DNA of 64,000 bases, from contig NC_135219.1 of assembly GCF_052324685.1 (NCBI RefSeq), forward strand, positions 19,910,985 to 19,974,984, read 5' to 3'. The stretch is from Brachyhypopomus gauderio (Eukaryota > Chordata > Actinopteri > Gymnotiformes > Hypopomidae). The notes under the pieces are model-generated. The model was not told the DNA's origin. It did not search any database and saw nothing but the letters and a program-made list of their open reading frames with translations. Below are positions 2,764 to 44,689 of this stretch, piece by piece. The position numbers and the translations under genes are program-made. The stretch's first letter is position 1, and each line of letters begins with the position of its first letter.

Positions 2764-2801
2764 AGTTTTGTGCACGTAAGCTAAATTTGTGTCTATTTCA
2801 G

Positions 2802-5800
2802 AGGCCTTGAGAAAAATTACTGCCGAAACCCTGACAATGAGAGGAGACTATGGTGTTACACGACTGACCCAGAGACCCGCTGGGAGTACTGTGCCATACC
2901 CAGCTGTGACACTGCCCCACACACTGGTCAGCTTCTCCTTAAATCAGACTAAACTGTCTTGGCCAATCCTTTCTCTTCATGTATATACTTGTCTCTTCAC
3001 TTTCAGATTTGTCATGTATGTCACAGGAGTGCTATAGAGCTGATATAATATAACCACTGTGATTTTAGAAGAGCAAGTGATGGCTCCAACTGAGGACTGC
3101 TATGAAGGAGATGGGAGCTCGTATCGTGGAGGCATGTCAGAGACCATCAGTGGGAAGAAATGTCAAAATTGGGCCTCCATGGAACCTCATTCACATTACA
3201 ACACACCTCAGAATGTTCCCAAGGCGTAAGCACATGGCAAATCTTCACAGACATTATGGCTAGAATAGAAAGACTGTTGTTCATTACAGTTAGAAATAAG
3301 TTCCATTAATTAATCTTGGGGGAAATTACTGCATTAAGGAGATCTGAAGTGAAAAGGCTTAACATTCTGGTGATTCCTGATTTAAATCCACATGTGTGTA
3401 TATATACATATTCTTTCAGAGATTTACAAGAAAACCTATGCAGGAACCCTGATGGAGATCGTGCTCCCTGGTGCTATACCACAGATCCCTCCGTGCGCTG
3501 GGAGTACTGTAAGATCGAGCGCTGCAGCGGCCAGGTCTCCCCAGTTGCCCCAATGCCCACCCAGTCTGGGCATAAACCCCTGGCCCCCTTGCCAACTCCC
3601 TCTCGCTCCATCACCACTCCCTCTCCAGTCAAAGGTTTGCCATCATCACATGCTGCTCACTACGATATTGACCAGGAGACGTTTTGCTGCCAGCTGTCGT
3701 CTCTACGGGGCCTTGATTTATCATTCTGCTCATGTTCTGATTTGAAGATTGTAAAGTGGGAAATGGAGCCGACTACAGAGGTCGGACGTCAATGACTGTA
3801 ACGGGCATAACGTGTCAAGCCTGGAGTTCCATGATCCCTCACCAGCATTCTAGTTTCACTCCTGACACACATCCAGACAAGGGTCTGGAGTCCAATGTAG
3901 GTCAACTCATACAAATATTGTATATCAGACTAGGGTAGTTATCAGACTCTAAAGCATTTCTTTTTTGTAATGGCTAGAACTGCAGAAATCCTGACAGTGA
4001 TGAAAATGGACCTTGGTGTTTCACTACAGATCCTAACAAGAAGTGGGATTACTGTCAGATTCCAGACTGTGGTATAAATGTCTGCTCATCTAAATACTTT
4101 ACTAAAATGAATTTGGCTTGTTGTAAATATTGTGCTTACACATTTCTTTGTGAACAGATGCCCCAAAGTGTGGACAACCAGTGACAAAACCAAAACAGTG
4201 CCTTGCCCGTATTGTTGGAGGATGTGTTTCTAAACATCATTCCTGGCCGTGGCAAGTCAGTTTAAGAACCAGGTACTGCAACCCTCCTTATCAGGGCTCT
4301 CAAGTTTTGGATTCATGTCAGAGTGTGAGAGTTGTTGAGAGTTGTTGACGGGGGGGGTGGCGAACGTTAATTGTTGAGCGGGGGGGGGGAGGGGGTGGTG
4401 GCGAACGTAAGTTGTTGAGCGGGGGGGGGGGGCGAACGTAAGTTGTTGAGCGGGGTGGGGTTGTTTGTATTTCGCGATCGATCGCCAGTGGAGGGCGACA
4501 TAGATATGGATCGGAGGTAAATAAACTAGATTTTTTTTTCTCGCCGTGTGAAATCGGAAGTGTGGCGTGTGAGCGTGTGAAGACGGTCAAATGCGTGTGT
4601 CACACGCTCAATGCGTGAGACTTGAGAGCCCTGCTCCTTATGTCTCGGTATTGTTATATGTAAGATTACAAATTAACTACATTCCTGTCTGCACAATATT
4701 TCAGTGCCTTGCTGTGTTTCATATAGTTCTGATATTCATTTCTGTGGAGGAACGTTAATCGATGCACAGTGGGTCCTGACAGCAGCACACTGCCTTGAGA
4801 GGTGCGTGACAGATTCTTAATAAACGTCTATAAACGTTAAACGTACTATAAACTTAACCTCATCTTCAAAGTGACATCCATAGAAAACTTTCTACAGATC
4901 TAAGAGTCCGTCCGCCTACAAAGTGTACCTAGGAGTTCACTCGGAGGGTGCAGATGAGGTGTCCAAGCAGGTCCGTGACCTGGAGAAAATTATCATGGGC
5001 CCAACACATATTGCACTTCTCAAGCTCGACAGGTGAGGAAGCGTTGGTCCATAGATTTTTGTTTCAACACCGTGTTAAACAGCAGATATCACCTCTTTTT
5101 GCATAAATTGTTTACAAGGCTGAGTTGCACTGGATTATTCACTGGATTTTTTTTAACAAAACTTTGGTGACTGCAACTTTACAGTTATGTTCTGGCTCTC
5201 TTAGCCTCACTTCTTACAGGTAGGTTAGCTGCAGCCTTGCTCAGGGTATATATATATATATATAATAATATATATATATTTATATATAATATATATATAA
5301 AACTTAAGTAACCTATTATTGTAATTTTAGTCAACCACATCTGTCTAGACTTCAGAATAATGCATTGTATCTTCATGAAAAATTAGAAAACATAGTTTAA
5401 TACACCTCAAAATAAGACTTCTCCCCTTTCAGGCCAGTTGTTATAAATGATAAGGTGTTGCCTGCATGCTTACCGGAGAAAAACTACATTGTTCCAGGTG
5501 GCACAGAATGCTACGTTACAGGATGGGGCAATACAGACGGTATGGAACTAGCATGACAAATAATGTTATTGGAACTTATTATTTGCTGTGAGCTGTTTTT
5601 TTGACACCTCTCCCATTGAATCTGGTTTCATGTATAAAAGCAAAACTAACTCTCTCCATGCTGACCTGTTTTCTATGAACTGGTGAAAAAGGTATTTTGA
5701 AGGAGACTGGCTTTCCTGTCATTGAGAACAAAATATGCAACAGCAGAACATACTTGAACAACCAGGTGAAAGAAAATGAGATGTGTGCAGGTGACACCGA

Positions 5801-6233
5801 TGGGGGAACTTATAGTTGTCAGGTACCAACAATCACACAACACCTCTAACATCTGTTATCATAACATGCTTTCTAATTGATATCAAGATCAATTACATGA
5901 TCAATTAAAGAATGCATCAGCTTATAAAGACTTAATGAGATTAACTGAAAAAATATTTTCTCAATTACATATGGTGATTGTGTTATGTGATATTTTTAAT
6001 TACATGCCCCTGTATTCGTTATTACGTTATTACGAGATCTTACATGCCCCATTCTTTCTCATTCTCAGATTGAGAGCGGTGGTCCCTTAGTGTGTGCCTC
6101 AGACAATAAGTTCATCCTTCAGGGAATAACCTCACTGAAGCTTGATTGTACCAACGCCAGGAAGCCCGGCATATATACCCGTGTGTCCAAGTTTGTGGAC
6201 TGGATTGACAGAGAGATGAAAGCAAATGCTTGA
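2802..6233 (+). CDS. Plasminogen-like protein, 3' part: half K3, K4, K5 and an inactive-looking trypsin-fold domain
   Basis: Eleven exons with consensus splice sites and matching phases: 2802-2926, 3069-3225, 3420-3634, 3748-3896, 3978-4071, 4158-4272, 4727-4801, 4898-5032, 5433-5539, 5692-5822, 6069-6233. They encode the second half of a K3-type kringle, a K4-type kringle ([22 protein letters not shown]), a Pro/Ser/Thr linker, a K5-type kringle ([19 protein letters not shown]) and a serine-protease domain. The activation site LAR-IVGG and the catalytic His (LTAAHC) are present, and the Ser is in SGGPLVC. The catalytic Asp is His (PTHIALLKL instead of DIALL). The S1-pocket Asp is Tyr (GGTYSCQ), and the two residues before the Ser are Ile-Glu instead of Gly-Asp. 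A secreted plasma pseudoprotease related to plasminogen is therefore inferred. The 5' part lies beyond the inserted LINE. K5's internal intron sits five codons later than in the other kringles. Confidence 0.88.
4292..4633. mobile_element. hAT-type MITE with perfect 8-bp target-site duplication
   Basis: The element begins CAGGGCTCTCAAGT and ends with its exact reverse complement. It is flanked by CTCCTTAT on both sides (4284-4291 and 4634-4641). An 8-bp duplication and CAG-type inverted ends are hallmarks of hAT elements. No coding capacity is seen, so it is non-autonomous. It sits in the intron between the protease-linker exon and the exon carrying the catalytic His. Confidence 0.9.
4339..4462 (+). 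repeat. G-run minisatellite inside the hAT MITE
   Basis: Four imperfect units of the form GTTGTTGA(G/C) followed by 4-13 G's; in three of them a GCGAACGT motif follows. The long G-runs could form G-quadruplex structure on the plus strand. Confidence 0.8.
5249..5302. repeat. (TA)n microsatellite in a plasminogen-like intron
   Basis: Imperfect alternating TA tract between protease exons 4898-5032 and 5433-5539. Confidence 0.85.
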
Positions 6234-12280: not shown

Positions 12281-12298
12281 CCTTACGGCTCGTCTTTC

Positions 12299-12510
12299 TG
12301 TGACGCTGGCGTGCCGGAGGAAGGAGGAGACACGACAAGCGTCTTGGAGTGATACACAGAACATTTATTAACAAAAACACGCAAAGCCCAGCACAGATGG
12401 TGCAAGCACGCTGACGCGGATGCTTGCACGGGCATGAACTTTAGACAAAGACGAGCACAAGACACTGCGTATTAACGTATAAACATGTAACAGGCGCCAA
12501 GCTAAGCGCC
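12299..12510 (-). mobile_element. Partial LTR (R-U5 side) between the two ORF copies
   Basis: On the minus strand it holds a segment also found in the 13546-13893 LTR (CGCAGTGTCTTGTGCT), an AATAAA, and an end resembling CCAGCGTCACA. It directly precedes the second MPGY ORF. The upstream U3 part was not delimited. Confidence 0.5.
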
Positions 12511-13519
12511 AGGAGTAGGGCGATGAGAGGAGAGAGCACGGGAGCTGCAGGCGCTGCAGCGAACGGGACCCCTCCCACATTCGCCGTGAAGCCTCCGCCC
12601 GGTGCCGCGCGGCTGGCGGACGCGCCTGGTGCAGCACGGCTGGCGGACGTGCCTGGTGTAGCGTGGCTGGCGGACTTTCCCCCCAGCTGACCGTATGACC
12701 AGCCCACCTCGCCTCGCGACTGCCCTCTGGAGTCGACAGTGGGCACGTCCACCTCCATCTCGGTCGCCGCCTCGCTGCCCTGGCTCCAGCTCATGGGCCG
12801 CTCCGGGCTGCCACCCCGGGAGCAGTCCATCCGCTCTCCTCCGGAGCGATCGGAGGACGGGGTCCTTCTCCCTTTCTCCCTCCCAACCGACAGTTCCGAG
12901 GGGGTAGGGCTCTCCTCTTCTTCTCCGCTACAAGAGCCCTCGGACGAACGATAATCCCCGTTCACCCCCTCCTCCTCGCCGTTGTCAGCGAGGCCGGTGG
13001 AGTACTCCGACGAAGGGTAGTCCTCTCCACCGTAGTCCACGGTGGAGGCGTCATCCAGCGACGGAGGGTAGTCCCCTCCACCGTAGTCCACGGTGGAGGC
13101 GTCATCCAGCGACGGAGGGTAGTCCCCTCCACCGTAGTCCACGGTGGAGGCGTCATCCTGCTCCGTCTCCTCACCTTGGAGGCGTCATCCTGCTCCGTCT
13201 CCTCACTCTCCTCCAGCTCGCTCTCGGGGTCTCTCACCATCCCGCAGAGCTCGACGGTGCCTACCCGCAGGGGTGACAGGTCCCTGGAGGACGTGGGGTG
13301 ATACACCCGCCACAACCGTACTGCTTCCCGGTGGAGCTCCTCTGCCGACTCGGGGTTAGGGTGCCCCCGATCTTGACGCAGCAGGGACGCACATACCGGG
13401 TCCTCCATGAGCTGCGCCTGTGTCGGCGGAGTTGTGCGGCGCGGGGGGGAGGACGATGCGCGGCGAAGCCGATTGCAGGGCTTCTTGCCCTTCCTCGGTT
13501 TGGGCCGGTAGCCTGGCAT
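12480..13519 (-). pseudogene. LTR-element ORF of unknown function (copy 1), frameshifted
   Basis: Starts MPGY 26 bases inside the LTR at 13546-13893. A basic stretch (KPRKGKK) and EDPVCASLLRQ match the copy at 12280. Three copies of a 17-residue unit (TVDYGGGDYPPSLDDAS) follow at 13000-13145. The frame shifts near 13140, after which the rest reads in another frame. The C-terminal stretch is Ala/Pro-rich with a hydrophobic end that runs into LTR sequence. Function unknown. Confidence 0.5.
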
Positions 13520-15305: not shown

Positions 15306-15354
15306 ATGGACATGCACAACACTCTCCTTTGGTTCTGCTTCATTCTTTATGCAG
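15306..15354 (+). other. Signal-peptide exon of the multi-kringle gene
   Basis: The ATG at 15306 (or in-frame 15312) is followed by a hydrophobic run ([11 protein letters not shown]) and a consensus GTGAGC donor after a phase-1 base. The following 30-base exon (15478-15507) adds [10 protein letters not shown], with signal cleavage probably near its start. The splice phases link it directly to the K2 exon at 16302. I could not identify a TATA box; the Harbinger end lies only about 145 bases upstream. Confidence 0.7.
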
Positions 15355-18300
15355 GTGAGCTGCTTCATTAGCATAATTAAATTAGCATAATATATTTAAA
15401 TGAGCAATAGAACTGCACAACATAAGGACCGGAGAACAATAATGAGATGATCTAACAGTGACTGTTTTGATAAACAGGTGTTTTTGGAAGGCAGGCAGAG
15501 AGCACAGGTAAAGTACTTCTGACAATAACAACAACTTGTTAATATCAATTGTCAATGATAATAACAAGAACTCTAGCAGTAATAAAAATAAACAATGCTA
15601 ACCTTTTGTATATTACAATAAATAAATAAACATAACTTACCATGTTATTGATGCTTTATACATAAGATATTTACCAAATATTTTCTCCCAGGCAAATAAA
15701 CTGTCCATCTAATTTAATAAGCTTTGCTTTAAATATTGATTTTGATATGGTGTTGGAAGCTAGCATGCTTTAGGGCACAGGGTTAGTCACCGAGTTAGTT
15801 TACATTGTCTTCCCTGCATAGTCAACAGAATTTACAGGATTTGATAAAAGGGCAAATTGACACAGGGCGCGGCTCCTCTCCTGAGGAGGCAGTGTACTCT
15901 GACATGGTGGAGCCATGCTAAGGTGCTTGAGTATGTCTGAGTATTTCAGTTTGATTTGCTCAAAGAAGCTCAAATTTGAAAGACATTGAATATTTTCGCA
16001 TCTTGTTGTTTAGTACTTAAAACTAAATATGAAAATGATAGCCTACTTTTTGAGTCAATATGATGGGTTTCAGTAAATGTATTATTTTAGGAAACACACA
16101 TAACTTTCAGCTACAAGTAACATAGCAATAAAATTCTATATTGGTTTGTTTATAATCAAAACAATATTTTTGGTTTATCTGAGCTACCAAGCTGCTTATT
16201 AAACCCATAGGCTGTAGATATGTATGTTGACAGAATATGGAACTCAGATTATCTGCTGAAATGGATGCCATCTCATGTAATAATCTCTTGCACATCTGTA
16301 GAGGAATGCATACACTGCAGTGGGGAGAACTACAGGGGCAAGATCTCTACCACCGAGGGTGGACACGCCTGCCAGCGATGGGACTCACAGAAACCCCATA
16401 ACCATGGATACATTCCCTCCATGTAGGTGCTCAAAGCTTTGTACTATTCCCTGTGTATCATCTCATGTGTCCACTTTACTAAATACTAACACAAACATTT
16501 TACAAATACTTTCGTGTTTATGCTCACGCTGCATGAATGTGCATACACATTTGCATGGCTGTGAGCAGGATTCCTGATAAGTACCTGGAGGAGAACTACT
16601 GCAGGAATCCTGATGGAGAATCGAGACCTTGGTGTTTCACCACCAGTCCATCCAAACGCTGGGACTTCTGCTCCATCCCTCGCTGCAGTGAGCTCTATTC
16701 TTCTCCTACTCACTCATCACAGTGTGTGAGTGTACAGGGCTGCAAAGACATAAAAGCATAAATGGGTTGTTGAGGACTTGAGAAAATTTGAAAAAAATTA
16801 CTGCCAAAACCCTGACAATGAGAGGAGACTATGGTGTTACACGACTGACCCAGAGACCCGCTGGGAGTACTATGCCATACCCAGCTGTGACACTGCCCCA
16901 CGCACTGGTCAGCTTCTCCTTAAATCAGACTAAACTGTCTTGGCCAATCCTTTCTCTTCATGTATATACTTGTCTCTTCACTTTCAGATTTGTCATGTAT
17001 GTCACAGGAGTGCTATAGAGCTGATATAATATAACCACTGTGATTTTAGAAGAGCAAGTGATCGCTCCAACTGAGGATTGCTATGAAGGAGATGGGAGCT
17101 CGTATCGTGGAGGCATGTCAGAGACCATCAGTGGGAAGAAATGTCAAAATTGGGCCTCCATGGAACCTCATTCACATTCCAACACACCTCAGAAGGTTCC
17201 CAAGGCGTAAGCACATGGCAAATCCTCACAGACATTATGGCTAGAATAGAAAGACCGTTGTTCATTACAGTTAGAAATAAGTTCCATTAATTCATCTTGG
17301 GGGAAATTACTGCATTAAGGAGATCTGAAGTGAAAAGGCTTTACATTCTGGTGATTTCTGATTTAAATCCACATAAATATGGCTTTAATGTGTGTGTATA
17401 TATACATATTCTTTCAGAGATCTACAAGAAAACCTATGCAGGAACCCTGATGGAGAACGTGCTCCCTGGTGCTACACCACAGATCCCTCCGTGCGCTGGG
17501 AGTTCTGTAAGATCGAGCGCTGCAGCAGCCAGGTCTCCCCAGTTGCCCCAATGCCCACCCAGTCTGGGCATAAACCCCTGGCCCCCTCGCCAGCTCCCTC
17601 TCCAATCAAAGGTTTGCCATCATCACATGCTGCTCACTACGATATTCACCAGGAGATGTCAATCTTTAAATCTGTAAGGGTTCACTCGTCCTCACCTTAG
17701 TTGTGAAGTCAGCACAGAGACGGTGTGTGTCAGCTTTATATTCAGCAGAACACAAAACACTCAGCATGATTTGGATACTGTAAATGTGCCTATTGTGTAT
17801 TTTGTTTTGTAGCATCTGTGCCATCAAGCATTGTGCCAGAGCTGACCTGTGCTACAGGAGATGGTAGCTCCTACAGAGGAACCGTTGCTGTGACAGAGTC
17901 TGGGAAAACCTGCCAGACCTGGGCATCTCAATACCCTCATGAGCATTCTAGAACACCAGAGAAGTTCCCATGCAGGTGAGCAATGATGCAGGATATGCAG
18001 CATAAGATGAAGGAATATGCAGTGAGGTCTTTGCTTTTATTTTTTGCCCATGCATGTCTTCAATTAACCTTTTTAAAACACAGATTTAATTTTACAGATA
18101 ATTTTAGTTTAGAATACAAATTCATATTGTAGTTTTGTGCACGTAAGCTAAATTTGTGTCTATTTCAGAGGCCTTGAGAAAAATTACTGCCGAAACCCTG
18201 ACAATGAGAGGAGACTATGGTGTTACACGACTGACCCAGAGACCCGCTGGGAGTACTGTGCCATACCCAGCTGTGACACTGCCCCACGCACTGGTCAGCT

Positions 18301-21300
18301 TCTCCTTAAATCAGACTAAACTGGCTTGGCCAATCCTTTCTCTTCATGTATATACTTGTCTCTTCACTTTCAGATTTGTCATGTATGTCACAGGAGTGCT
18401 ATAGAGCTGATATAATATAACCCCTGTGATTTTAGAAGAGCAAGTGATGGCTCCAACTGAGGATTGCTATGAAGGAGATGGGAGCTCGTATCGTGGAGGC
18501 ATGTCAGAGACCATCAGTGGGAAGAAATGTCAAAATTGGGCCTCCATGGAACCTCATTCACATTCCAACACACCTCAGAAGGTTCCCAAGGCGTAAGCAC
18601 ATGGCAATTCCTCACAGACATTATGGCTAGAATAGAAAGACCGTTGTTCATTACAGTTAGAAATAAGTTCCATTAATTCATCTTGGGGGAAATTACTGCA
18701 TTAAGGAGATCTGAAGTGAAAAGGCTTTACATTCTGGTGATTTCTGATTTAAATCCACATAAATATGGCTTTAATGTGTGTGTATATATACATATTCTTT
18801 CAGAGATCTACAAGAAAACCTATGCAGGAACCCTGATGGAGAACGTGCTCCCTGGTGCTACACCACAGATCCCTCCGTGCGCTGGGAGTTCTGTAAGATC
18901 GAGCGCTGCAGCAGCCAGGTCTCCCCAGTTGCCCCAATGCCCACCCAGTCTGGGCATAAACCCCTGGCCCCCTCGCCAGCTCCCTCTCCAATCAAAGGTT
19001 TGCCATCATCACATGCTGCTCACTACGATATTCACCAGGAGATGTCAATCTTTAAATCTGTAAGGGTTCACTCGTCCTCACCTTAGTTGTGAAGTCAGCA
19101 CAGAGACGGTGTGTGTCAGCTTTATATTCAGCAGAACACAAAACACTCAGCATGATTTGGATACTGTAAATGTGCCTATTGTGTATTTTGTTTTGTAGCA
19201 TCTGTGCCATCAAGCATTGTGCCAGAGCTGACCTGTGCTACAGGAGATGGTAGCTCCTACAGAGGAACCGTTGCTGTGACAGAGTCTGGGAAAACCTGCC
19301 AGACCTGGGCATCTCAATACCCTCATGAGCATTCTAGAACACCAGAGAAGTTCCCATGCAGGTGAGCAATGATGCAGGATATGCAGCATAAGATGAAGGA
19401 ATATGCAGTGAGGTCTTTGCTTTTATTTTTTGCCCATGCATGTCTTCAATTAACCTTTTTAAAACACAGATTTAATTTTACAGATAATTTTAGTTTAGAA
19501 TACAAATTCATATTGTAGTTTTGTGCACGTAAGCTAAATTTGTGTCTATTTCAGAGGCCTTGAGAAAAATTACTGCCGAAACCCTGACAATGAGAGGAGA
19601 CTATGGTGTTACACGACTGACCCAGAGACCCGCTGGGAGTACTGTGCCATACCCAGCTGTGACACTGCCCCACGCACTGGTCAGCTTCTCCTTAAATCAG
19701 ACTAAACTGGCTTGGCCAATCCTTTCTCTTCATGTATATACTTGTCTCTTCACTTTCAGATTTGTCATGTATGTCACAGGAGTGCTATAGAGCTGATATA
19801 ATATAACCCCTGTGATTTTAGAAGAGCAAGTGATGGCTCCAACTGAGGATTGCTATGAAGGAGATGGGAGCTCGTATCGTGGAGGCATGTCAGAGACCAT
19901 CAGTGGGAAGAAATGTCAAAATTGGGCCTCCATGGAACCTCATTCACATTCCAACACACCTCAGAAGGTTCCCAAGGCGTAAGCACATGGCAATTCCTCA
20001 CAGACATTATGGCTAGAATAGAAAGACCGTTGTTCATTACAGTTAGAAATAAGTTCCATTAATTCATCTTGGGGGAAATTACTGCATTAAGGAGATCTGA
20101 AGTGAAAAGGCTTTACATTCTGGTGATTTCTGATTTAAATCCACATAAATATGGCTTTAATGTGTGTGTATATATACATATTCTTTCAGAGATCTACAAG
20201 AAAACCTATGCAGGAACCCTGATGGAGAACGTGCTCCCTGGTGCTACACCACAGATCCCTCCGTGCGCTGGGAGTTCTGTAAGATCGAGCGCTGCAGCAG
20301 CCAGGTCTCCCCAGTTGCCCCAATGCCCACCCAGTCTGGGCATAAACCCCTGGCCCCCTCGCCAGCTCCCTCTCCAATCAAAGGTTTGCCATCATCACAT
20401 GCTGCTCACTACGATATTCACCAGGAGATGTCAATCTTTAAATCTGTAAGGGTTCACTCGTCCTCACTTTAGTTCTGAAGTCAGCACAGAGACGGTGTGT
20501 GTCAGCTTTATATTCAGCAGAACACAAAACACTCAGCATGATTTGGATACTGTAAATGTGCCTATTGTGTATTTTGTTTTGTAGCATCTGTGCCACCAAG
20601 CATTGTGCCAGAGCTGACCTGTGCTACAGGAGATGGTAGCTCCTACAGAGGAACCGTTGCTGTGACAGAGTCTGGGAAAACCTGCCAGACCTGGGCATCT
20701 CAATACCCTCATGAGCATTCTAGAACACCAGAGAAGTTCCCATGCAGGTGAGCAATGATGCAGGATATGCAGCATAAGATGAAGGAATATGCAGTGAGGT
20801 CTTTGCTTTTATTTTTTGCCCATGCATGTCTTCAATTAACCTTTTTAAAACACAGATTTAATTTTACAGATAATTTTAGTTTAGAATACAAATTCATATT
20901 GTAGTTTTGTGCACGTAAGCTAAATTTGTGTCTATTTCAGAGGCCTTGAGAAAAATTACTGCCGAAACCCTGACAATGAGAGGAGACTATGGTGTTACAC
21001 GACTGACCCAGAGACCCGCTGGGAGTACTGTGCCATACCCAGCTGTGACACTGCCCCACGCACTGGTCAGCTTCTCCTTAAATCAGACTAAACTGGCTTG
21101 GCCAATCCTTTCTCTTCATGTATATACTTGTCTCTTCACTTTCAGATTTGTCATGTATGTCACAGGAGTGCTATAGAGCTGATATAATATAACCCCTGTG
21201 ATTTTAGAAGAGCAAGTGATGGCTCCAACTGAGGATTGCTATGAAGGAGATGGGAGCTCGTATCGTGGAGGCATGTCAGAGACCATCAGTGGGAAGAAAT

Positions 21301-24300
21301 GTCAAAATTGGGCCTCCATGGAACCTCATTCACATTCCAACACACCTCAGAAGGTTCCCAAGGCGTAAGCACATGGCAATTCCTCACAGACATTATGGCT
21401 AGAATAGAAAGACCATTGTTCATTACAGTTAGAAATAAGTTCCATTAATTCATCTTGGGGGAAATTACTGCATTAAGGAGATCTGAAGTGAAAAGGCTTT
21501 ACATTCTGGTGATTTCTGATTTAAATCCACATAAATATGGCTTTAATGTGTGTGTATATATACATATTCTTTCAGAGATCTACAAGAAAACCTATGCAGG
21601 AACCCTGATGGAGAACGTGCTCCCTGGTGCTACACCACAGATCCCTCCGTGCGCTGGGAGTTCTGTAAGATCGAGCGCTGCAGCAGCCAGGTCTCCCCAG
21701 TTGCCCCAATGCCCACCCAGTCTGGGCATAAACCCCTGGCCCCCTCGCCAGCTCCCTCTCCAATCAAAGGTTTGCCATCATCACATGCTGCTCACTACGA
21801 TATTCACCAGGAGATGTCAATCTTTAAATCTGTAAGGGTTCACTCGTCCTCACTTTAGTTCTGAAGTCAGCACAGAGACGGTGTGTGTCAGCTTTATATT
21901 CAGCAGAACACAAAACACTCAGCATGATTTGGATACTGTAAATGTGCCTATTGTGTATTTTGTTTTGTAGCATCTGTGCCACCAAGCATTGTGCCAGAGC
22001 TGACCTGTGCTACAGGAGATGGTAGCTCCTACAGAGGAACCGTTGCTGTGACAGAGTCTGGGAAAACCTGCCAGACCTGGGCATCTCAATACCCTCATGA
22101 GCATTCTAGAACACCAGAGAAGTTCCCATGCAGGTGAGCAATGATGCAGGATATGCAGCATAAGATGAAGGAATATGCAGTGAGGTCTTTGCTTTTATTT
22201 TTTGCCCATGCATGTCTTCAATTAACCTTTTTAAAACACAGATTTAATTTTACAGATAATTTTAGTTTAGAATACAAATTCATATTGTAGTTTTGTGCAC
22301 GTAAGCTAAATTTGTGTCTATTTCAGAGGCCTTGAGAAAAATTACTGCCGAAACCCTGACAATGAGAGGAGACTATGGTGTTACACGACTGACCCAGAGA
22401 CCCGCTGGGAGTACTGTGCCATACCCAGCTGTGACACTGCCCCACGCACTGGTCAGCTTCTCCTTAAATCAGACTAAACTGGCTTGGCCAATCCTTTCTC
22501 TTCATGTATATACTTGTCTCTTCACTTTCAGATTTGTCATGTATGTCACAGGAGTGCTATAGAGCTGATATAATATAACCCCTGTGATTTTAGAAGAGCA
22601 AGTGATGGCTCCAACTGAGGATTGCTATGAAGGAGATGGGAGCTCGTATCGTGGAGGCATGTCAGAGACCATCAGTGGGAAGAAATGTCAAAATTGGGCC
22701 TCCATGGAACCTCATTCACATTCCAACACACCTCAGAAGGTTCCCAAGGCGTAAGCACATGGCAATTCCTCACAGACATTATGGCTAGAATAGAAAGACC
22801 GTTGTTCATTACAGTTAGAAATAAGTTCCATTAATTCATCTTGGGGGAAATTACTGCATTAAGGAGATCTGAAGTGAAAAGGCTTTACATTCTGGTGATT
22901 TCTGATTTAAATCCACATAAATATGGCTTTAATGTGTGTGTATATATACATATTCTTTCAGAGATCTACAAGAAAACCTATGCAGGAACCCTGATGGAGA
23001 ACGTGCTCCCTGGTGCTACACCACAGATCCCTCCGTGCGCTGGGAGTTCTGTAAGATCGAGCGCTGCAGCAGCCAGGTCTCCCCAGTTGCCCCAATGCCC
23101 ACCCAGTCTGGGCATAAACCCCTGGCCCCCTCGCCAGCTCCCTCTCCAATCAAAGGTTTGCCATCATCACATGCTGCTCACTACGATATTCACCAGGAGA
23201 TGTCAATCTTTAAATCTGTAAGGGTTCACTCGTCCTCACCTTAGTTCTGAAGTCAGCACAGAGACGGTGTGTGTCAGCTTTATATTCAGCAGAACACAAA
23301 ACACTCAGCATGATTTGGATACTGTAAATGTGCCTATTGTGTATTTTGTTTTGTAGCATCTGTGCCACCAAGCATTGTGCCAGAGCTGACCTGTGCTACA
23401 GGAGATGGTAGCTCCTACAGAGGAACCGTTGCTGTGACAGAGTCTGGGAAAACCTGCCAGACCTGGGCATCTCAATACCCTCATGAGCATTCTAGAACAC
23501 CAGAGAAGTTCCCATGCAGGTGAGCAATGATGCAGGATATGCAGCATAAGATGAAGGAATATGCAGTGAGGTCTTTGCTTTTATTTTTTGCCCATGCATG
23601 TCTTCAATTAACCTTTTTAAAACACAGATTTAATTTTACAGATAATTTTAGTTTAGAATACAAATTCATATTGTAGTTTTGTGCACGTAAGCTAAATTTG
23701 TGTCTATTTCAGAGGCCTTGAGAAAAATTACTGCCGAAACCCTGACAATGAGAGGAGACTATGGTGTTACACGACTGACCCAGAGACCCGCTGGGAGTAC
23801 TGTGCCATACCCAGCTGTGACACTGCCCCACGCACTGGTCAGCTTCTCCTTAAATCAGACTAAACTGGCTTGGCCAATCCTTTCTCTTCATGTATATACT
23901 TGTCTCTTCACTTTCAGATTTGTCATGTATGTCACAGGAGTGCTATAGAGCTGATATAATATAACCACTGTGATTTTAGAAGAGCAAGTGATCGCTCCAA
24001 CTGAGGATTGCTATGAAGGAGATGGGAGCTCGTATCGTGGAGGCATGTCAGAGACCATCAGTGGGAAGAAATGTCAAAATTGGGCCTCCATGGAACCTCA
24101 TTCACATTCCAACACACCTCAGAAGGTTCCCAAGGCGTAAGCACATGGCAATTCCTCACAGACATTATGGCTAGAATAGAAAGACCGTTGTTCATTACAG
24201 TTAGAAATAAGTTCTATTAATTCATCTTGGGGGAAATTACTGCATTAAGGAGATCTGAAGTGAAAAGGCTTTACATTCTGGTGATTTCTGATTTAAATCC

Positions 24301-27300
24301 ACATAAATATGGCTTTAATGTGTGTGTATATATACATATTCTTTCAGAGATCTACAAGAAAACCTATGCAGGAACCCTGATGGAGAACGTGCTCCCTGGT
24401 GCTACACCACAGATCCCTCCGTGCGCTGGGAGTTCTGTAAGATCGAGCGCTGCAGCAGCCAGGTCTCCCCAGTTGCCCCAATGCCCACCCAGTCTGGGCA
24501 TAAACCCCTGGCCCCCTCGCCAGCTCCCTCTCCAATCAAAGGTTTGCCATCATCACATGCTGCTCACTACGATATTCACCAGGAGATGTCAATCTTTAAA
24601 TCTGTAAGGGTTCACTCGTCCTCACCTTAGTTCTGAAGTCAGCACAGAGACGGTGTGTGTCAGCTTTATATTCAGCAGAACACAAAACACTCAGCATGAT
24701 TTGGATACTGTAAATGTGCCTATTGTGTATTTTGTTTTGTAGCATCTGTGCCACCAAGCATTGTGCCAGAGCTGACCTGTGCTACAGGAGATGGTAGCTC
24801 CTACAGAGGAACCGTTGCTGTGACAGAGTCTGGGAAAACCTGCCAGACCTGGGCATCTCAATACCCTCATGAGCATTCTAGAACACCAGAGAAGTTCCCA
24901 TGCAGGTGAGCAATGATGCAGGATATGCAGCATAAGATGAAGGAATATGCAGTGAGGTCTTTGCTTTTATTTTTTGCCCATGCATGTCTTCAATTAACCT
25001 TTTTAAAACACAGATTTAATTTTACAGATAATTTTAGTTTAGAATACAAATTCATATTGTAGTTTTGTGCACGTAAGCTAAATTTGTGTCTATTTCAGAG
25101 GCCTTGAGAAAAATTACTGCCGAAACCCTGACAATGAGAGGAGACTATGGTGTTACACGACTGACCCAGAGACCCGCTGGGAGTACTGTGCCATACCCAG
25201 CTGTGACACTGCCCCACGCACTGGTCAGCTTCTCCTTAAATCAGACTAAACTGGCTTGGCCAATCCTTTCTCTTCATGTATATACTTGTCTCTTCACTTT
25301 CAGATTTGTCATGTATGTCACAGGAGTGCTATAGAGCTGATATAATATAACCCCTGTGATTTTAGAAGAGCAAGTGATGGCTCCAACTGAGGATTGCTAT
25401 GAAGGAGATGGGAGCTCGTATCGTGGAGGCATGTCAGAGACCATCAGTGGGAAGAAATGTCAAAATTGGGCCTCCATGGAACCTCATTCACATTCCAACA
25501 CACCTCAGAAGGTTCCCAAGGCGTAAGCACATGGCAATTCCTCACAGACATTATGGCTAGAATAGAAAGACCGTTGTTCATTACAGTTAGAAATAAGTTC
25601 CATTAATTCATCTTGGGGGAAATTACTGCATTAAGGAGATCTGAAGTGAAAAGGCTTTACATTCTGGTGATTTCTGATTTAAATCCACATAAATATGGCT
25701 TTAATGTGTGTGTATATATACATATTCTTTCAGAGATCTACAAGAAAACCTATGCAGGAACCCTGATGGAGAACGTGCTCCCTGGTGCTACACCACAGAT
25801 CCCTCCGTGCGCTGGGAGTTCTGTAAGATCGAGCGCTGCAGCAGCCAGGTCTCCCCAGTTGCCCCAATGCCCACCCAGTCTGGGCATAAACCCCTGGCCC
25901 CCTCGCCAGCTCCCTCTCCAATCAAAGGTTTGCCATCATCACATGCTGCTCACTACGATATTCACCAGGAGATGTCAATCTTTAAATCTGTAAGGGTTCA
26001 CTCGTCCTCACTTTAGTTCTGAAGTCAGCACAGAGACGGTGTGTGTCAGCTTTATATTCAGCAGAACACAAAACACTCAGCATGATTTGGATACTGTAAA
26101 TGTGCCTATTGTGTATTTTGTTTTGTAGCATCTGTGCCACCAAGCATTGTGCCAGAGCTGACCTGTGCTACAGGAGATGGTAGCTCCTACAGAGGAACCG
26201 TTGCTGTGACAGAGTCTGGGAAAACCTGCCAGACCTGGGCATCTCAATACCCTCATGAGCATTCTAGAACACCAGAGAAGTTCCCATGCAGGTGAGCAAT
26301 GATGCAGGATATGCAGCATAAGATGAAGGAATATGCAGTGAGGTCTTTGCTTTTATTTTTTGCCCATGCATGTCTTCAATTAACCTTTTTAAAACACAGA
26401 TTTAATTTTACAGATAATTTTAGTTTAGAATACAAATTCATATTGTAGTTTTGTGCACGTAAGCTAAATTTGTGTCTATTTCAGAGGCCTTGAGAAAAAT
26501 TACTGCCGAAACCCTGACAATGAGAGGAGACTATGGTGTTACACGACTGACCCAGAGACCCGCTGGGAGTACTGTGCCATACCCAGCTGTGACACTGCCC
26601 CACGCACTGGTCAGCTTCTCCTTAAATCAGACTAAACTGGCTTGGCCAATCCTTTCTCTTCATGTATATACTTGTCTCTTCACTTTCAGATTTGTCATGT
26701 ATGTCACAGGAGTGCTATAGAGCTGATATAATATAACCCCTGTGATTTTAGAAGAGCAAGTGATGGCTCCAACTGAGGATTGCTATGAAGGAGATGGGAG
26801 CTCGTATCGTGGAGGCATGTCAGAGACCATCAGTGGGAAGAAATGTCAAAATTGGGCCTCTATGGAACCTCATTCACATTCCAACACACCTCAGAAGGTT
26901 CCCAAGGCGTAAGCACATGGCAATTCCTCACAGACATTATGGCTAGAATAGAAAGACCGTTGTTCATTACAGTTAGAAATAAGTTCCATTAATTCATCTT
27001 GGGGGAAATTACTGCATTAAGGAGATCTGAAGTGAAAAGGCTTTACATTCTGGTGATTTCTGATTTAAATCCACATAAATATGGCTTTAATGTGTGTGTA
27101 TATATACATATTCTTTCAGAGATCTACAAGAAAACCTATGCAGGAACCCTGATGGAGAACGTGCTCCCTGGTGCTACACCACAGATCCCTCCGTGCGCTG
27201 GGAGTTCTGTAAGATCGAGCGCTGCAGCAGCCAGGTCTCCCCAGTTGCCCCAATGCCCACCCAGTCTGGGCATAAACCCCTGGCCCCCTCGCCAGCTCCC

Positions 27301-30300
27301 TCTCCAATCAAAGGTTTGCCATCATCACATGCTGCTCACTACGATATTCACCAGGAGATGTCAATCTTTAAATCTGTAAGGGTTCACTCGTCCTCACCTT
27401 AGTTCTGAAGTCAGCACAGAGACGGTGTGTGTCAGCTTTATATTCAGCAGAACACAAAACACTCAGCATGATTTGGATACTGTAAATGTGCCTATTGTGT
27501 ATTTTGTTTTGTAGCATCTGTGCCACCAAGCATTGTGCCAGAGCTGACCTGTGCTACAGGAGATGGTAGCTCCTACAGAGGAACCGTTGCTGTGACAGAG
27601 TCTGGGAAAACCTGCCAGACCTGGGCATCTCAATACCCTCATGAGCATTCTAGAACACCAGAGAAGTTCCCATGCAGGTGAGCAATGATGCAGGATATGC
27701 AGCATAAGATGAAGGAATATGCAGTGAGGTCTTTGCTTTTATTTTTTGCCCATGCATGTCTTCAATTAACCTTTTTAAAACACAGATTTAATTTTACAGA
27801 TAATTTTAGTTTAGAATACAAATTCATATTGTAGTTTTGTGCACGTAAGCTAAATTTGTGTCTATTTCAGAGGCCTTGAGAAAAATTACTGCCGAAACCC
27901 TGACAATGAGAGGAGACTATGGTGTTACACGACTGACCCAGAGACCCGCTGGGAGTACTGTGCCATACCCAGCTGTGACACTGCCCCACGCACTGGTCAG
28001 CTTCTCCTTAAATCAGACTAAACTGGCTTGGCCAATCCTTTCTCTTCATGTATATACTTGTCTCTTCACTTTCAGATTTGTCATGTATGTCACAGGAGTG
28101 CTATAGAGCTGATATAATATAACCACTGTGATTTTAGAAGAGCAAGTGATCGCTCCAACTGAGGATTGCTATGAAGGAGATGGGAGCTCGTATCGTGGAG
28201 GCATGTCAGAGACCATCAGTGGGAAGAAATGTCAAAATTGGGCCTCCATGGAACCTCATTCACATTCCAACACACCTCAGAAGGTTCCCAAGGCGTAAGC
28301 ACATGGCAATTCCTCACAGACATTATGGCTAGAATAGAAAGACCGTTGTTCATTACAGTTAGAAATAAGTTCTATTAATTCATCTTGGGGGAAATTACTG
28401 CATTAAGGAGATCTGAAGTGAAAAGGCTTTACATTCTGGTGATTTCTGATTTAAATCCACATAAATATGGCTTTAATGTGTGTGTATATATACATATTCT
28501 TTCAGAGATCTACAAGAAAACCTATGCAGGAACCCTGATGGAGAACGTGCTCCCTGGTGCTACACCACAGATCCCTCCGTGCGCTGGGAGTTCTGTAAGA
28601 TCGAGCGCTGCAGCAGCCAGGTCTCCCCAGTTGCCCCAATGCCCACCCAGTCTGGGCATAAACCCCTGGCCCCCTCGCCAGCTCCCTCTCCAATCAAAGG
28701 TTTGCCATCATCACATGCTGCTCACTACGATATTCACCAGGAGATGTCAATCTTTAAATCTGTAAGGGTTCACTCGTCCTCACCTTAGTTCTGAAGTCAG
28801 CACAGAGACGGTGTGTGTCAGCTTTATATTCAGCAGAACACAAAACACTCAGCATGATTTGGATACTGTAAATGTGCCTATTGTGTATTTTGTTTTGTAG
28901 CATCTGTGCCACCAAGCATTGTGCCAGAGCTGACCTGTGCTACAGGAGATGGTAGCTCCTACAGAGGAACCGTTGCTGTGACAGAGTCTGGGAAAACCTG
29001 CCAGACCTGGGCATCTCAATACCCTCATGAGCATTCTAGAACACCAGAGAAGTTCCCATGCAGGTGAGCAATGATGCAGGATATGCAGCATAAGATGAAG
29101 GAATATGCAGTGAGGTCTTTGCTTTTATTTTTTGCCCATGCATGTCTTCAATTAACCTTTTTAAAACACAGATTTAATTTTACAGATAATTTTAGTTTAG
29201 AATACAAATTCATATTGTAGTTTTGTGCACGTAAGCTAAATTTGTGTCTATTTCAGAGGCCTTGAGAAAAATTACTGCCGAAACCCTGACAATGAGAGGA
29301 GACTATGGTGTTACACGACTGACCCAGAGACCCGCTGGGAGTACTGTGCCATACCCAGCTGTGACACTGCCCCACGCACTGGTCAGCTTCTCCTTAAATC
29401 AGACTAAACTGGCTTGGCCAATCCTTTCTCTTCATGTATATACTTGTCTCTTCACTTTCAGATTTGTCATGTATGTCACAGGAGTGCTATAGAGCTGATA
29501 TAATATAACCCCTGTGATTTTAGAAGAGCAAGTGATCGCTCCAACTGAGGATTGCTATGAAGGAGATGGGAGCTCGTATCGTGGAGGCATGTCAGAGACC
29601 ATCAGTGGGAAGAAATGTCAAAATTGGGCCTCCATGGAACCTCATTCACATTCCAACACACCTCAGAAGGTTCCCAAGGCGTAAGCACATGGCAATTCCT
29701 CACAGACATTATGGCTAGAATAGAAAGACCGTTGTTCATTACAGTTAGAAATAAGTTCCATTAATTCATCTTGGGGGAAATTACTGCATTAAGGAGATCT
29801 GAAGTGAAAAGGCTTTACATTCTGGTGATTTCTGATTTAAATCCACATAAATATGGCTTTAATGTGTGTGTATATATACATATTCTTTCAGAGATCTACA
29901 AGAAAACCTATGCAGGAACCCTGATGGAGAACGTGCTCCCTGGTGCTACACCACAGATCCCTCCGTGCGCTGGGAGTTCTGTAAGATCGAGCGCTGCAGC
30001 AGCCAGGTCTCCCCAGTTGCCCCAATGCCCACCCAGTCTGGGCATAAACCCCTGGCCCCCTCGCCAGCTCCCTCTCCAATCAAAGGTTTGCCATCATCAC
30101 ATGCTGCTCACTACGATATTCACCAGGAGATGTCAATCTTTAAATCTGTAAGGGTTCACTCGTCCTCACCTTAGTTCTGAAGTCAGCACAGAGACGGTGT
30201 GTGTCAGCTTTATATTCAGCAGAACACAAAACACTCAGCATGATTTGGATACTGTAAATGTGCCTATTGTGTATTTTGTTTTGTAGCATCTGTGCCACCA

Positions 30301-33300
30301 AGCATTGTGCCAGAGCTGACCTGTGCTACAGGAGATGGTAGCTCCTACAGAGGAACCGTTGCTGTGACAGAGTCTGGGAAAACCTGCCAGACCTGGGCAT
30401 CTCAATACCCTCATGAGCATTCTAGAACACCAGAGAAGTTCCCATGCAGGTGAGCAATGATGCAGGATATGCAGCATAAGATGAAGGAATATGCAGTGAG
30501 GTCTTTGCTTTTATTTTTTGCCCATGCATGTCTTCAATTAACCTTTTTAAAACACAGATTTAATTTTACAGATAATTTTAGTTTAGAATACAAATTCATA
30601 TTGTAGTTTTGTGCACGTAAGCTAAATTTGTGTCTATTTCAGAGGCCTTGAGAAAAATTACTGCCGAAACCCTGACAATGAGAGGAGACTATGGTGTTAC
30701 ACGACTGACCCAGAGACCCGCTGGGAGTACTGTGCCATACCCAGCTGTGACACTGCCCCACGCACTGGTCAGCTTCTCCTTAAATCAGACTAAACTGGCT
30801 TGGCCAATCCTTTCTCTTCATGTATATACTTGTCTCTTCACTTTCAGATTTGTCATGTATGTCACAGGAGTGCTATAGAGCTGATATAATATAACCACTG
30901 TGATTTTAGAAGAGCAAGTGATCGCTCCAACTGAGGATTGCTATGAAGGAGATGGGAGCTCGTATCGTGGAGGCATGTCAGAGACCATCAGTGGGAAGAA
31001 ATGTCAAAATTGGGCCTCCATGGAACCTCATTCACATTCCAACACACCTCAGAAGGTTCCCAAGGCGTAAGCACATGGCAATTCCTCACAGACATTATGG
31101 CTAGAATAGAAAGACCGTTGTTCATTACAGTTAGAAATAAGTTCTATTAATTCATCTTGGGGGAAATTACTGCATTAAGGAGATCTGAAGTGAAAAGGCT
31201 TTACATTCTGGTGATTTCTGATTTAAATCCACATAAATATGGCTTTAATGTGTGTGTATATATACATATTCTTTCAGAGATCTACAAGAAAACCTATGCA
31301 GGAACCCTGATGGAGAACGTGCTCCCTGGTGCTACACCACAGATCCCTCCGTGCGCTGGGAGTTCTGTAAGATCGAGCGCTGCAGCAGCCAGGTCTCCCC
31401 AGTTGCCCCAATGCCCACCCAGTCTGGGCATAAACCCCTGGCCCCCTCGCCAGCTCCCTCTCCAATCAAAGGTTTGCCATCATCACATGCTGCTCACTAC
31501 GATATTCACCAGGAGATGTCAATCTTTAAATCTGTAAGGGTTCACTCGTCCTCACCTTAGTTCTGAAGTCAGCACAGAGACGGTGTGTGTCAGCTTTATA
31601 TTCAGCAGAACACAAAACACTCAGCATGATTTGGATACTGTAAATGTGCCTATTGTGTATTTTGTTTTGTAGCATCTGTGCCACCAAGCATTGTGCCAGA
31701 GCTGACCTGTGCTACAGGAGATGGTAGCTCCTACAGAGGAACCGTTGCTGTGACAGAGTCTGGGAAAACCTGCCAGACCTGGGCATCTCAATACCCTCAT
31801 GAGCATTCTCGAACACCAGAGAAGTTCCCATGCAGGTGAGCAATGATGCAGGATATGCAGCATAAGATAAAGGAATATGCAGTGAGGTCTTTGCTTTTAT
31901 TTTTTGCCCATGCATGTCTTCAATTAACCTTTTTAAAACACAGATTTAATTTTACAGATAATTTTAGTTTAGAATACAAATTCATATTGTAGTTTTGTGC
32001 ACGTAAGCTAAATTTGTGTCTATTTCAGAGGCCTTGAGAAAAATTACTGCCGAAACCCTGACAATGAGAGGAGACTATGGTGTTACACGACTGACCCAGA
32101 GACCCGCTGGGAGTACTGTGCCATACCCAGCTGTGACACTGCCCCACACACTGGTCAGCTTCTCCTTAAATCAGACTAAACTGTCTTGGCCAATCCTTTC
32201 TCTTCATGTATATACTTGTCTCTTCACTTTCAGATTTGTCATGTATGTCACAGGAGTGCTATAGAGCTGATATAATATAACCACTGTGATTTTAGAAGAG
32301 CAAGTGATCGCTCCAACTGAGGATTGCTATGAAGGAGATGGGAGCTCGTATCGTGGAGGCATGTCAGAGACCATCAGTGGGAAGAAATGTCAAAATTGGG
32401 CCTCCATGGAACCTCATTCACATTCCAACACACCTCAGAAGGTTCCCAAGGCGTAAGCACATGGCAATTCCTCACAGACATTATGGCTAGAATAGAAAGA
32501 CTGTTGTTCATTACAGTTAGAAATAAGTTCTATTAATTCATCTTGGGGGAAATTACTGCATTAAGGAGATCTGAAGTGAAAAGGCTTTACATTCTGGTGA
32601 TTTCTGATTTAAATCCACATAAATATGGCTTTAATGTGTGTGTATGTATACGTATTCTTTCAGAGATCTACAAGAAAACCTATGCAGGAACCCTGATGGA
32701 GAACGTGCTCCCTGGTGTTACACCACAGATCCCTCCGTGCGCTGGGAGTTCTGTAAGATCGAGCGCTGCAGCAGCCAGGTCTCCCCAGTTGCCCCAATGC
32801 CCACCCAGTCTGGGCATAAACCCCTGGCCCCCTCGCCAGCTCTCTCTCCAATCAAAGGTTTGCCATCATCACATGCTGCTCACTACGATATTCACCAGGA
32901 GATGTTAATCTTTAAATCTGTAAGGGTTCACTCGTCCTCACTTTAGTTCTGAAGTCAGCACAGAGACGGTGTGTGTCAGCTTTATATTCAGCAGAACACA
33001 AAACACTCAGCATGATTTGGATACTGTAAATGTGCCTATTGTGTATTTTGTTTTGTAGCATCTGTGCCACCAAGCATTGTGCCAGAGCTGACCTGTGCTA
33101 CAGGAGATGGTAGCTCCTACAGAGGAACCGTTGCTGTGACAGAGTCTGGGAAAACCTGCCAGACCTGGGCATCTCAATACCCTCATGAGCATTCTAGAAC
33201 ACCAGAGAAGTTCCCATGCAGGTGAGCAATGATGCAGGATATGCAGCATAAGATAAAGGAATATGCAGTGAGGTCTTTGCTTTTATTTTTTGCCCATGCA

Positions 33301-33565
33301 TATCTTCAATTAACCTTTTTAAAACACAGATTTAATTTTACAGATAATTTTAGTTTAGAATACAAATTCATATTGTAGTTTTGTGCACGTAAGCTAAATT
33401 TGTGTCTATTTCAGAGGCCTTGAGAAAAATTACTGCCGAAACCCTGACAATGAGAGGAGACTATGGTGTTACACAACTGACCCAGAGACCCGCTGGGAGT
33501 ACTGTGCCATACCCAGCTGTGACACTGCCCCACACACTGGTCAGCTTCTCCTTAAATCAGACTAA
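15306..33565 (+). CDS. Apolipoprotein(a)-like multi-kringle protein, 25 kringles, no protease
   Basis: The signal exon is 15306-15354 ([16 protein letters not shown]). A 30-base exon follows (15478-15507), then K2 exons 16302-16422 and 16569-16687, then 12 units of four exons. In unit 1 these are 17050-17206, 17418-17611, 17813-17975 and 18169-18293, repeating every 1386 bases; the last exon starts at 33415. All phases match (1/2/1/2). If the last exon is read past its usual donor, translation stops at 33565, giving about 2670 residues. The order is K2 then (K4-type, linker, K3-type) x12. No PAN domain, K1, K5 or protease exon was found. Both repeated kringle types keep D-x-E and R-W positions used for lysine binding in plasminogen kringles. 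A secreted, lysine-binding plasma-type protein is inferred. The true 3' end is uncertain because sequence homology stops at 33667. Confidence 0.8.
16302..16687 (+). other. K2-type kringle (two exons)
   Basis: Exons 16302-16422 and 16569-16687 encode [16 protein letters not shown] ... [13 protein letters not shown]. The CIHCSGENY start, with an extra Cys two residues after the first kringle Cys, is the signature of plasminogen K2, where that Cys bonds to K3. The exon ends in phase 1 and can splice in frame to the K4-type exon at 17050. Confidence 0.85.
16769..16909 (+). pseudogene. Relic second half of a K3-type kringle
   Basis: It is closely similar to the K3 second-half exon of the array, but the 5' end is scrambled and the acceptor is lost. 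The NYCRNP Arg is Gln, and a kringle Cys is Tyr (WEYYAIPSC). The matching first-half exon is absent. Its phase cannot follow K2, so it is probably skipped. Confidence 0.8.
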
Positions 33566-33667
33566 ACTGTCTTGGCCAATCCTTTCTCTTCATGTATATA
33601 CTTGTCTCTTCACTTTCAGATTTGTCATGTATGTCACAGGAGTGCTATAGAGCTGATATAATATAAC
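17050..33667 (+). repeat. Twelve 1386-bp tandem units, each with a K4-type and a K3-type kringle
   Basis: Unit starts (K4 first-half exon) are 17050, 18436, 19822, 21208, 22594, 23980, 25366, 26752, 28138, 29524, 30910 and 32296, an exact period with no net indels. Each unit has exons of 157, 194, 163 and 125 bases (639 coding, 213 codons), so copy-number change keeps the frame. Introns are as conserved as exons, with only scattered single-base differences. The units at the right end (from about 32016) carry more private variants than the interior. Homology ends at 33667, inside the intron before the next K4 exon. Confidence 0.97.
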
Positions 33668-33775
33668 CCAGTGGTTCCCAAACTTTTTCTGCCGTTCCCC
33701 CCTTTAGTAGATAAGAATATTTTTGCGACCCCCCTACACACACACCCCCATATTGACACATGTGCACATGTTTTA
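33668..33775 (+). mobile_element. hAT-family terminal fragment
   Basis: Starts CAGTGGTTCCCAAACTTTTT (from about 33669), a common hAT terminus in vertebrates. It abuts the array breakpoint; the opposite terminus was not found. Confidence 0.6.
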
Positions 33776-44014: not shown

Positions 44015-44689
44015 GATGGCAGTCGTGCGTGCGGTGGTGCCGGGTCTGGTTGTCCTTCAGCAGGAGGGTATTTACACACATGTGAGTGCAGAGTCCAGAA
44101 CAGAGGTTAACCCTCAAACTAGCTGAACAGAGACTGACTAATGATACAGTGAAACAACGCAGAAGGCATTGTGTTATTCTTTAATAGATTGTTCCTCCTC
44201 GAGTCTTCCAGTAGTTGCTGAAGAGATAACATTTTAAATCAAATGAAATGTAGCTGTTATGTCCAAAATTCTTACAGGTCATAAAACCATCGTTCAGTCT
44301 CACAGCTGAGTTAGGTTTTTAGGTTTTCTTCTTTTAGGTTTTTAAGTTTTAAAAGCATGTCTCCAAGAAAATCTTGTAAAAACATTGTAGATTCAACTGT
44401 AAAAAAGAACAAGGTTTCCACTTGAGGAAACAGCCCTTATATTTGAACTTACAGGCATATTCTGTAGCAATGCTGTGATGATGAAGAAGTCGTCTCCATC
44501 GACACCGCCTTAGTTGTAAATAATAAGTTAATTAAAAACAGGCTTTTACAAAAATAAAACCAGACCCCTGGCTTAATGATACCACCCGGGTCTACAGTCC
44601 ACGCTGCAGGAAGGTAAAACGCAGATAGAAAAAGGACAGGCTTTGTGTGTCCCAGAGTATGTTAAGAGACTGTCTTAGTGAATATCAAG

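Follow-up and report, generated by a model that had tools for sequence, protein, structure and literature searches.

A Plasminogen-Derived Array of Alternating K4 and K3 Kringles in the Electric Fish Brachyhypopomus gauderio

Architecture of the Kringle Array

A tandem array of plasminogen-derived kringles with a period of exactly 1386 bp was found at positions 16785..33668 (plus strand) of the analysed stretch of the B. gauderio genome. This stretch, referred to below as the window, comprises 64,000 nucleotides of contig NC_135219.1. The limits of the array were determined by self-comparison and unit alignment. At a shift of 1386 bp, near-identity extends from 16785 to about 32286, which carries the array copies to 33668. 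Kringle typing was performed with HMMs trained on 12 full-length plasminogens, and it revealed the order K2-(K4-K3)x12, which gives 25 kringles in the gene model. After splicing of the signal exon, K2, and the 12 units, the model has a length of 2660 aa. It consists of 51 exons, with GT-AG borders in 50 of 50 introns and no stop inside the exons. A previous sequence-only reading of this DNA had proposed an array derived from plasminogen, with a signal exon, K2, and 24 further kringles in frame. The derivation was confirmed by the HMM typing together with the K2, K3, and K4 trees described below, and the reading frame by the gene model.

The gene starts with a signal-peptide exon of 49 nt (15306..15354; 16 residues, phase 1, GT donor), and the same peptide starts the public protein P0008. 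Kringle 2 is encoded by two exons, at 16302..16422 and 16569..16687, which were assigned by the exon model and HMM typing. A possible in-phase mini-exon of 30 nt (10 residues), with AG/GT at its edges, was observed 3′ of the signal exon at 15478-15507; it is perhaps a remnant of a PAN exon. The left edge of the array is formed by a relic K3b exon (~16788..16907), which is truncated at its 5′ end, has one Cys replaced by Tyr, and lies outside the model. Because the first K3 survives merely as this relic between K2 and the first K4, the unit order was set as K4-K3.

The complete K4 + K3 units 1 to 12 are located at 17050..18293, 18436..19679, 19822..21065, 21208..22451, 22594..23837, 23980..25223, 25366..26609, 26752..27995, 28138..29381, 29524..30767, 30910..32153, and 32296..33539, respectively. 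All of the features listed so far are on the plus strand. Each of the 12 units contains four exons (K4a, K4b, K3a, and K3b). Their joins alternate in phase: those within a kringle are in phase 2, and those from one kringle to the next are in phase 1. Neither stops nor frameshifts were present in the 12 units, and the mean identity among them is 99.6%.

In agreement with the sequence-only reading, the array gene model has no PAN, K1, K5, or protease exon. A tblastn search of the window downstream of the array with PAN+K1, K5, and protease of the electric eel gave chance-level matches alone (best E 0.69, limit E 10). The plasminogen layout of PAN, five kringles, and a trypsin domain with His-Asp-Ser is therefore not that of the array model.

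Sequence Divergence among the Repeat Units

The alignment of the 12 units contains 21 variable sites, 13 of which are intronic, and pairwise differences range from 0 to 17. At the protein level, four positions differ between the array copies. Unit 12 is the most divergent (10-17 differences), followed by unit 11 (4-10), and the interior units are homogenised; unit 3 is identical to unit 7, and unit 6 to unit 9. Divergent edge units with a homogenised interior are the pattern expected from unequal exchange in a tandem array.

Very high identity, including the two pairs of identical units, is also what would be seen if the assembly had produced 12 copies from one or two true units. This explanation is contradicted by the 21 variable sites and by the ordering of divergence towards the edges. 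It is also contradicted by the public B. gauderio protein P0002 (‘plasminogen-like, partial’; 415 aa), which was typed as K3-K4-K3-K4, though this protein possibly rests on the same assembly. The pieces of P0002 match the array at 98-100% identity in a comparison that printed only pieces above 98%, and the N-terminal residues of P0002 differ from the model. A query with the first 1581 of the 2660 residues gave 773 matches, and the best 120 of these included no long array protein of B. gauderio. We consider an assembly artefact very improbable and are nearly certain that the amplified array is real. An assembly product of one ordinary plasminogen gene is likewise contradicted by the variable sites and the divergent edge units.

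The Adjacent Paralog and the Genomic Neighbourhood

The plasminogen-like paralog that had been proposed next to the array was identified upstream of it. The window contains the 3′ part of this gene, here called gene A (2802..6233, plus strand), which matches P0008. It is composed of K3b (2802-2926), K4a (3069-3225), K4b (3420-3634), K5 (about 3747-4070), and protease pieces (4157-6230), followed by a stop (to 6233), all on the plus strand. P0008 (‘plasminogen-like [Brachyhypopomus gauderio]’) matches gene A piecewise, with three printed pieces at 100% in a comparison limited to pieces above 55% identity. Its signal and K2 peptides are identical to those of the array gene, and the K4 and K3 sequences are close. 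Gene A/P0008 differs from the array gene in having a single K3-K4-K5, a protease without the catalytic Asp, and a DxD motif in K4, where the array K4 has DxE.

The loss of the catalytic Asp is seen in the motif GKDIALL of the eel and Chanos, which reads --HIALL in gene A. In addition, TDSCQGDSGG is changed to TYSCQIESGG and TSWG to TSLK; we take the altered positions to be Asp189-type and Gly193-type residues. With the catalytic Asp missing and the active-site motifs altered, gene A has the appearance of a pseudo-protease whose reading frame is open, and it is not an ordinary plasminogen. In PMC11231438, the plasmin triad is given as His603-Asp646-Ser741. Eel plasminogen gave 2069 matches, and no canonical plasminogen of B. 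gauderio was present in the best 120. Such a protein may sit in the eel cluster of 7 formed at 90% clustering, and therefore its loss is not claimed.

The IGF2R-SLC22 neighbourhood noted in the sequence-only reading was found on the minus strand. It includes an SLC22A1/2-like exon at about 43.6-44.06 kb, which was recognised by a match to PDB sequences and had no Pfam match, an FnII domain at 55.4-55.8 kb, and an IGF2R-type repeat at 62.3-62.8 kb. LPA lies in an IGF2R-SLC22-PLG neighbourhood, and the locus of the array is of the same type.

Several mobile and repetitive sequences were observed in the window. A LINE-type reverse transcriptase with further ORFs occupies 1-2760 on the minus strand (extent estimated from the ORFs) and adjoins gene A within the K3a-K3b intron. 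Transposase pieces, presumably of a piggyBac element, lie between gene A and the array gene at 9717-10520, with a Pfam DDE_Tnp_1_7 match in 9717-10202. The interval from the SLC22 gene to IGF2R contains a second reverse transcriptase (44666-46009, plus strand). Minisatellite-like GC-rich repeats with periods of 27 to 72 bp are present between the two kringle genes, at 7218-7804 and 11548-13206.

The 3′ End of the Array Gene

The last K3b exon is followed by a read-through tail, GQLLLKSD and a stop, at 33540..33565 (plus strand). The TAA at 33563-33565 is reached only by reading past the last 5′ splice site, that is, with the last intron retained. Of the polyadenylation motifs 3′ of 33565, AATAAA is first met at 36148, and ATTAAA occurs at 34313 and 35793. 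The K3b-K4a intron is interrupted by a transposon-like sequence, CAGTGGTTCCCAAACTT, whose start is at 33669..33700 (plus strand). We take this element to be hAT-like; its far terminal repeat or far end was sought in the window and was not found. As the transposon cuts the array, the true 3′ end of the array gene may be lost, and the gene may not truly end at 33565.

An alternative that bears on this end is that the array is the middle of a larger gene, signal-K2-(K4-K3)n-K4-K5-dead protease. Its 3′ end would have been displaced to 2802-6233 by a real rearrangement or by a mis-join at the transposons. The terminal 294 bp of the array (33375-33668) correspond, apart from one mismatch, to 2762-3055, the segment with which gene A begins in the window. 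The equivalent segment of unit 11 is a perfect match, and units 1-10 show two mismatches. Such a match reflects either a recent exchange or an array that was once continuous with K4-K5-protease and whose order was altered, really or artificially. The displacement would also fit the presence of transposons at both ends (the LINE upstream and the hAT-like element from 33669, with no far end found in the window), and K5 and the trypsin domain are retained in the grouper and chimpanzee arrays. It is opposed by the public model P0008, in which gene A has its own signal and K2, and by the lack of any N in the window. Moreover, K3a of P0008 carries a Glu that is found in 0 of 12 array copies, which speaks for two separate genes. 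We regard a displaced 3′ end as unlikely.

Lysine-Binding Sites and the Interkringle Cysteine

The acid pair of the lysine site is Asp-x-Glu in 25 of 25 model kringles. In gene A and in eel plasminogen, K4 has Asp-x-Asp. K2 and K3 of eel plasminogen have Asp-x-Glu too, so only K4 changed in the array. According to PMC10110952, K2 of human plasminogen (Asp219/Glu221) is the weakest lysine binder, and K3 is inactive for lysine due to Lys311 in place of the acid. For apo(a), PMC11555715 describes weak lysine sites that dock on apoB-100 before disulfide formation. The motif observed here suggests that all array kringles would have lysine sites of a weak, K2-like type.

Both K2 and K3 of the model contain an extra Cys, and these align with residues 169 and 297 of human plasminogen. 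In plasminogen, Cys169 (K2) and Cys297 (K3) form an interkringle disulfide. The extra Cys of K3 is retained in 12/12 array copies and K2 is present once, and therefore about 11 cysteines are predicted to be unpaired. The model kringles contain 163 Cys in total, an odd number, and one further Cys is in the signal.

The interkringle Cys was surveyed in 33 chosen proteins. Most arrays of K2-K3 pairs retain both partners, as in Misgurnus P0121 (13/13 and 13/13) and in both Cheilinus models (3/3 and 3/3); Betta (1/2 and 1/3) and Poecilia (2/3 and 2/3) keep them in part. Among the K3-only arrays, the Cys was lost in three of the five sampled lineages. It is present in 0/10 and 0/4 copies in char, in 0/6 in the hedgehog K3-type array, and in groupers in 1/15 (Epinephelus moara, the one in the canonical tail) and 1/7 (E. 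lanceolatus). The exceptions are icefish, which keeps it in 15/17, and conger, with 4/6 and 2/6 (one of these six truncated). The retention of Cys in the B. gauderio array may reflect its youth alone.

Related Arrays and Phylogeny

To place the array among its relatives, all kringles were typed in 239 proteins, the best 120 of each of two protein searches. The arrays of relatives are automated predictions and cluster representatives. Misgurnus has 26 kringles as K2-K3 x13, and K2-K3 arrays occur also in Paramisgurnus and two Triplophysa; the wrasse Cheilinus has K2-K3 x3 followed by K4. K3 is repeated in Epinephelus (x14 in one model), the icefish Pseudochaenichthys (x17, with K5), Salvelinus (x10), and Conger (x6). 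The array of Erinaceus is K3-type and the primate arrays are K4, as is that of Acipenser (x4), and Tamandua has K1 x5. The trypsin domain is retained in some of these arrays.

Other layouts were observed during typing: K1 x5-K2-K3 in P0066 (anteater), K2-K3 x2 ahead of K1-K5 in P0137 (house finch), (K1-K4)x3-K5 in P0129 (Chinese sucker), and K4 x4 in P0138 (sturgeon). The electric eel model P0010 reads K4-K5-K2-K3-K4-K5, which suggests that tandem PAN-less, K1-less plasminogen-like copies were already present in the eel lineage.

The sequence-only reading had presented the locus as a third, independent case of kringle amplification, after primates and hedgehog, using a two-kringle unit. The count could not be maintained, as automated models already show arrays in loaches, groupers, icefish, char, conger, wrasse, sturgeon, and others. 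Given the K2-K3 arrays of other fish, the use of two kringles as a repeat unit is not new either; the K4-K3 unit, however, had no counterpart in another species within the 239 typed proteins. What is new at the level of sequence is this K4-K3 unit, the uniform Asp-x-Glu motif, and the predicted surplus of cysteines.

The K2, K3, and K4 trees each pair the array with gene A. The K3 tree had 67 rows, to which 33 chosen proteins contributed at most four distinct K3 each. The K3 copies of the B. gauderio array do not differ over the domain and entered the tree as a single row. Array and gene A were joined with an SH-aLRT of 97 and grouped with eel plasminogen and an eel plasminogen-like protein at 95. 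Conger arrays were placed with conger plasminogen (94) and char arrays with salmon plasminogen (100). In the K4 tree, the pair of array and gene A (98) stands beside characin plasminogens (78) and not beside the eel; the array is apart from chimpanzee LPA, which joins a rodent plasminogen. The K2 tree unites the array and gene A with K2 of the eel plasminogen-like protein (85). By placing the array with gene A, the kringle trees bear out the proposal that it arose independently of the primate and hedgehog genes.

That all sampled arrays bearing K3 go back to one origin was rejected by the AU test, which was post hoc, as the groups were named after the tree was seen, and which used 79 columns that resolve few deep forks. 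One clade of all 49 non-canonical rows, gene A and the eel paralog excepted, gave p-AU 3e-22. For the five fish K3-type arrays together the value was 5e-5, and for the B. gauderio array with conger 0.039; both groupings were rejected. These data suggest that fish made plasminogen-derived kringle arrays several times.

Among the matches listed in the open-licence literature, none dealt with apo(a)-like arrays of fish. PMC6337849 left LPA out of its survey, and PMC11555715 names Old World primates, humans, and hedgehog as the only Lp(a)-like species.

Comparison with Known Apo(a)-Like Genes

The array gene is a candidate member of the class of plasminogen-derived, apo(a)-like genes: its sequence has a signal exon and a kringle array with no active protease, and a secreted product is predicted. 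As with LPA of humans and Old World primates, the array is derived from plasminogen by kringle amplification, as indicated by the typing and trees. It has near-identical tandem kringles and would share the theme of weak lysine sites with free thiols. According to PMC11555715, the LPA repeats are of K4 only and occur together with K5 and an inactive protease domain, and KIV-9 has one free Cys. In contrast, the B. gauderio model has K2 first, then alternating K4 and K3 (12 each), and about 11 predicted free Cys. At its C end, which is cut by the transposon, K5 and an inactive protease have only chance-level matches downstream of the array in the window. LPA also forms a covalent complex with apoB by way of a free Cys; on the side of the array, unpaired cysteines are predicted. 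Orthology to LPA was not recovered: the array kringles group with gene A, and in the K3 tree they fall inside a gymnotiform group (SH-aLRT 95). The array gene thus resembles apo(a) on paper, but several defining features of LPA fail, and the name ‘LPA orthologue’ is unwarranted.

Hedgehog apo(a) is similar in having K3-type repeats without a protease, and a free Cys is reported for it in PMC11555715. The hedgehog model P0015, however, is K3-type only and has the interkringle Cys in 0/6 K3-typed copies, compared with 12/12 in the array; all seven of its kringles have six Cys. The ‘apolipoprotein(a)-like’ arrays of loach, wrasse, and related fish (P0121, P0126, P0006, and P0003) are, like the B. 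gauderio array, plasminogen-derived and built of a two-kringle unit. Their unit is K2-K3, which keeps the disulfide partners together, whereas that of B. gauderio is K4-K3.

Selection and Proposed Function

Purifying selection was looked for between gene A and the array and within the array, and it was not detected. Between gene A and the array consensus, 10 changes were counted at 374 nonsynonymous sites and 3 at 103 synonymous sites (Fisher p=1.0), and the introns differ by 8 substitutions in 336 aligned sites, gaps uncounted. Within the array, 4 nonsynonymous changes in 495 sites and 4 synonymous in 144 were counted (p=0.08). Because the copies are recent, the 12 intact copies are not 12 independent observations.

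The lack of detectable constraint is what would be expected of a dying paralog, in which neutral unequal exchange enlarged the array of a transposon-cut gene that yields no stable protein. Such a fate would also account for the truncated relic K3b, the missing K4/K5/protease end, and the transposon at the 3′ edge. The protease of the adjoining paralog is dead, and the sole B. gauderio array model among the public protein matches listed is a 415-aa partial. The intact reading frame and splice sites, which extend throughout the gene and include the signal and K2, argue against decay. We consider a dying paralog possible but rather improbable.

The reading that we favour is an amplified PAN-less, K1-less paralog yielding a secreted, lysine-binding, and thiol-bearing decoy, and as a whole we give it an even chance of being correct. 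A PAN-less, K1-less plasminogen paralog of a gymnotiform electric fish would have lost the 5′ half of K3. The K4-K3 stretch would then have been amplified, most simply via unequal exchange, to the 12 near-identical units present in the sequence. With the usual splicing of kringle exons, the gene would give rise to a secreted, protease-less protein of 25 kringles; that such a protein is expressed and secreted seems to us about as probable as the opposite. Its 25 predicted weak lysine sites would bind lysine-rich surfaces by avidity in competition with plasminogen. The protein would in this way counteract fibrinolysis as a decoy, as has been proposed for apo(a). If the protein is expressed, the chances for and against such a polyvalent lysine decoy are evenly balanced. 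The roughly 11 predicted free thiols might link the chains covalently to one another or to a different plasma protein, which, again assuming expression, we judge slightly less probable than not.

More tentatively, and with considerable doubt, we propose that the K2-K3 disulfide shapes which unit can amplify, a rule that the K4-K3 unit of Brachyhypopomus would break. The chain would then combine weak lysine sites in every kringle with about 11 thiols that are exposed, and both of the chemical features behind Lp(a) assembly would have evolved anew in a fish. As part of the same doubtful reading, vertebrates would repeatedly convert plasminogen into protease-less or protease-dead kringle arrays. 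The B. gauderio locus and the fish models indicate that apo(a)-like arrays arose repeatedly, and in experimentally tractable species. Their differing units and cysteine states may serve as natural experiments on the features that make an apo(a)-like protein, such as weak lysine sites, a free thiol, and array length, and these experiments may also bear on why apo(a)-like genes keep arising.
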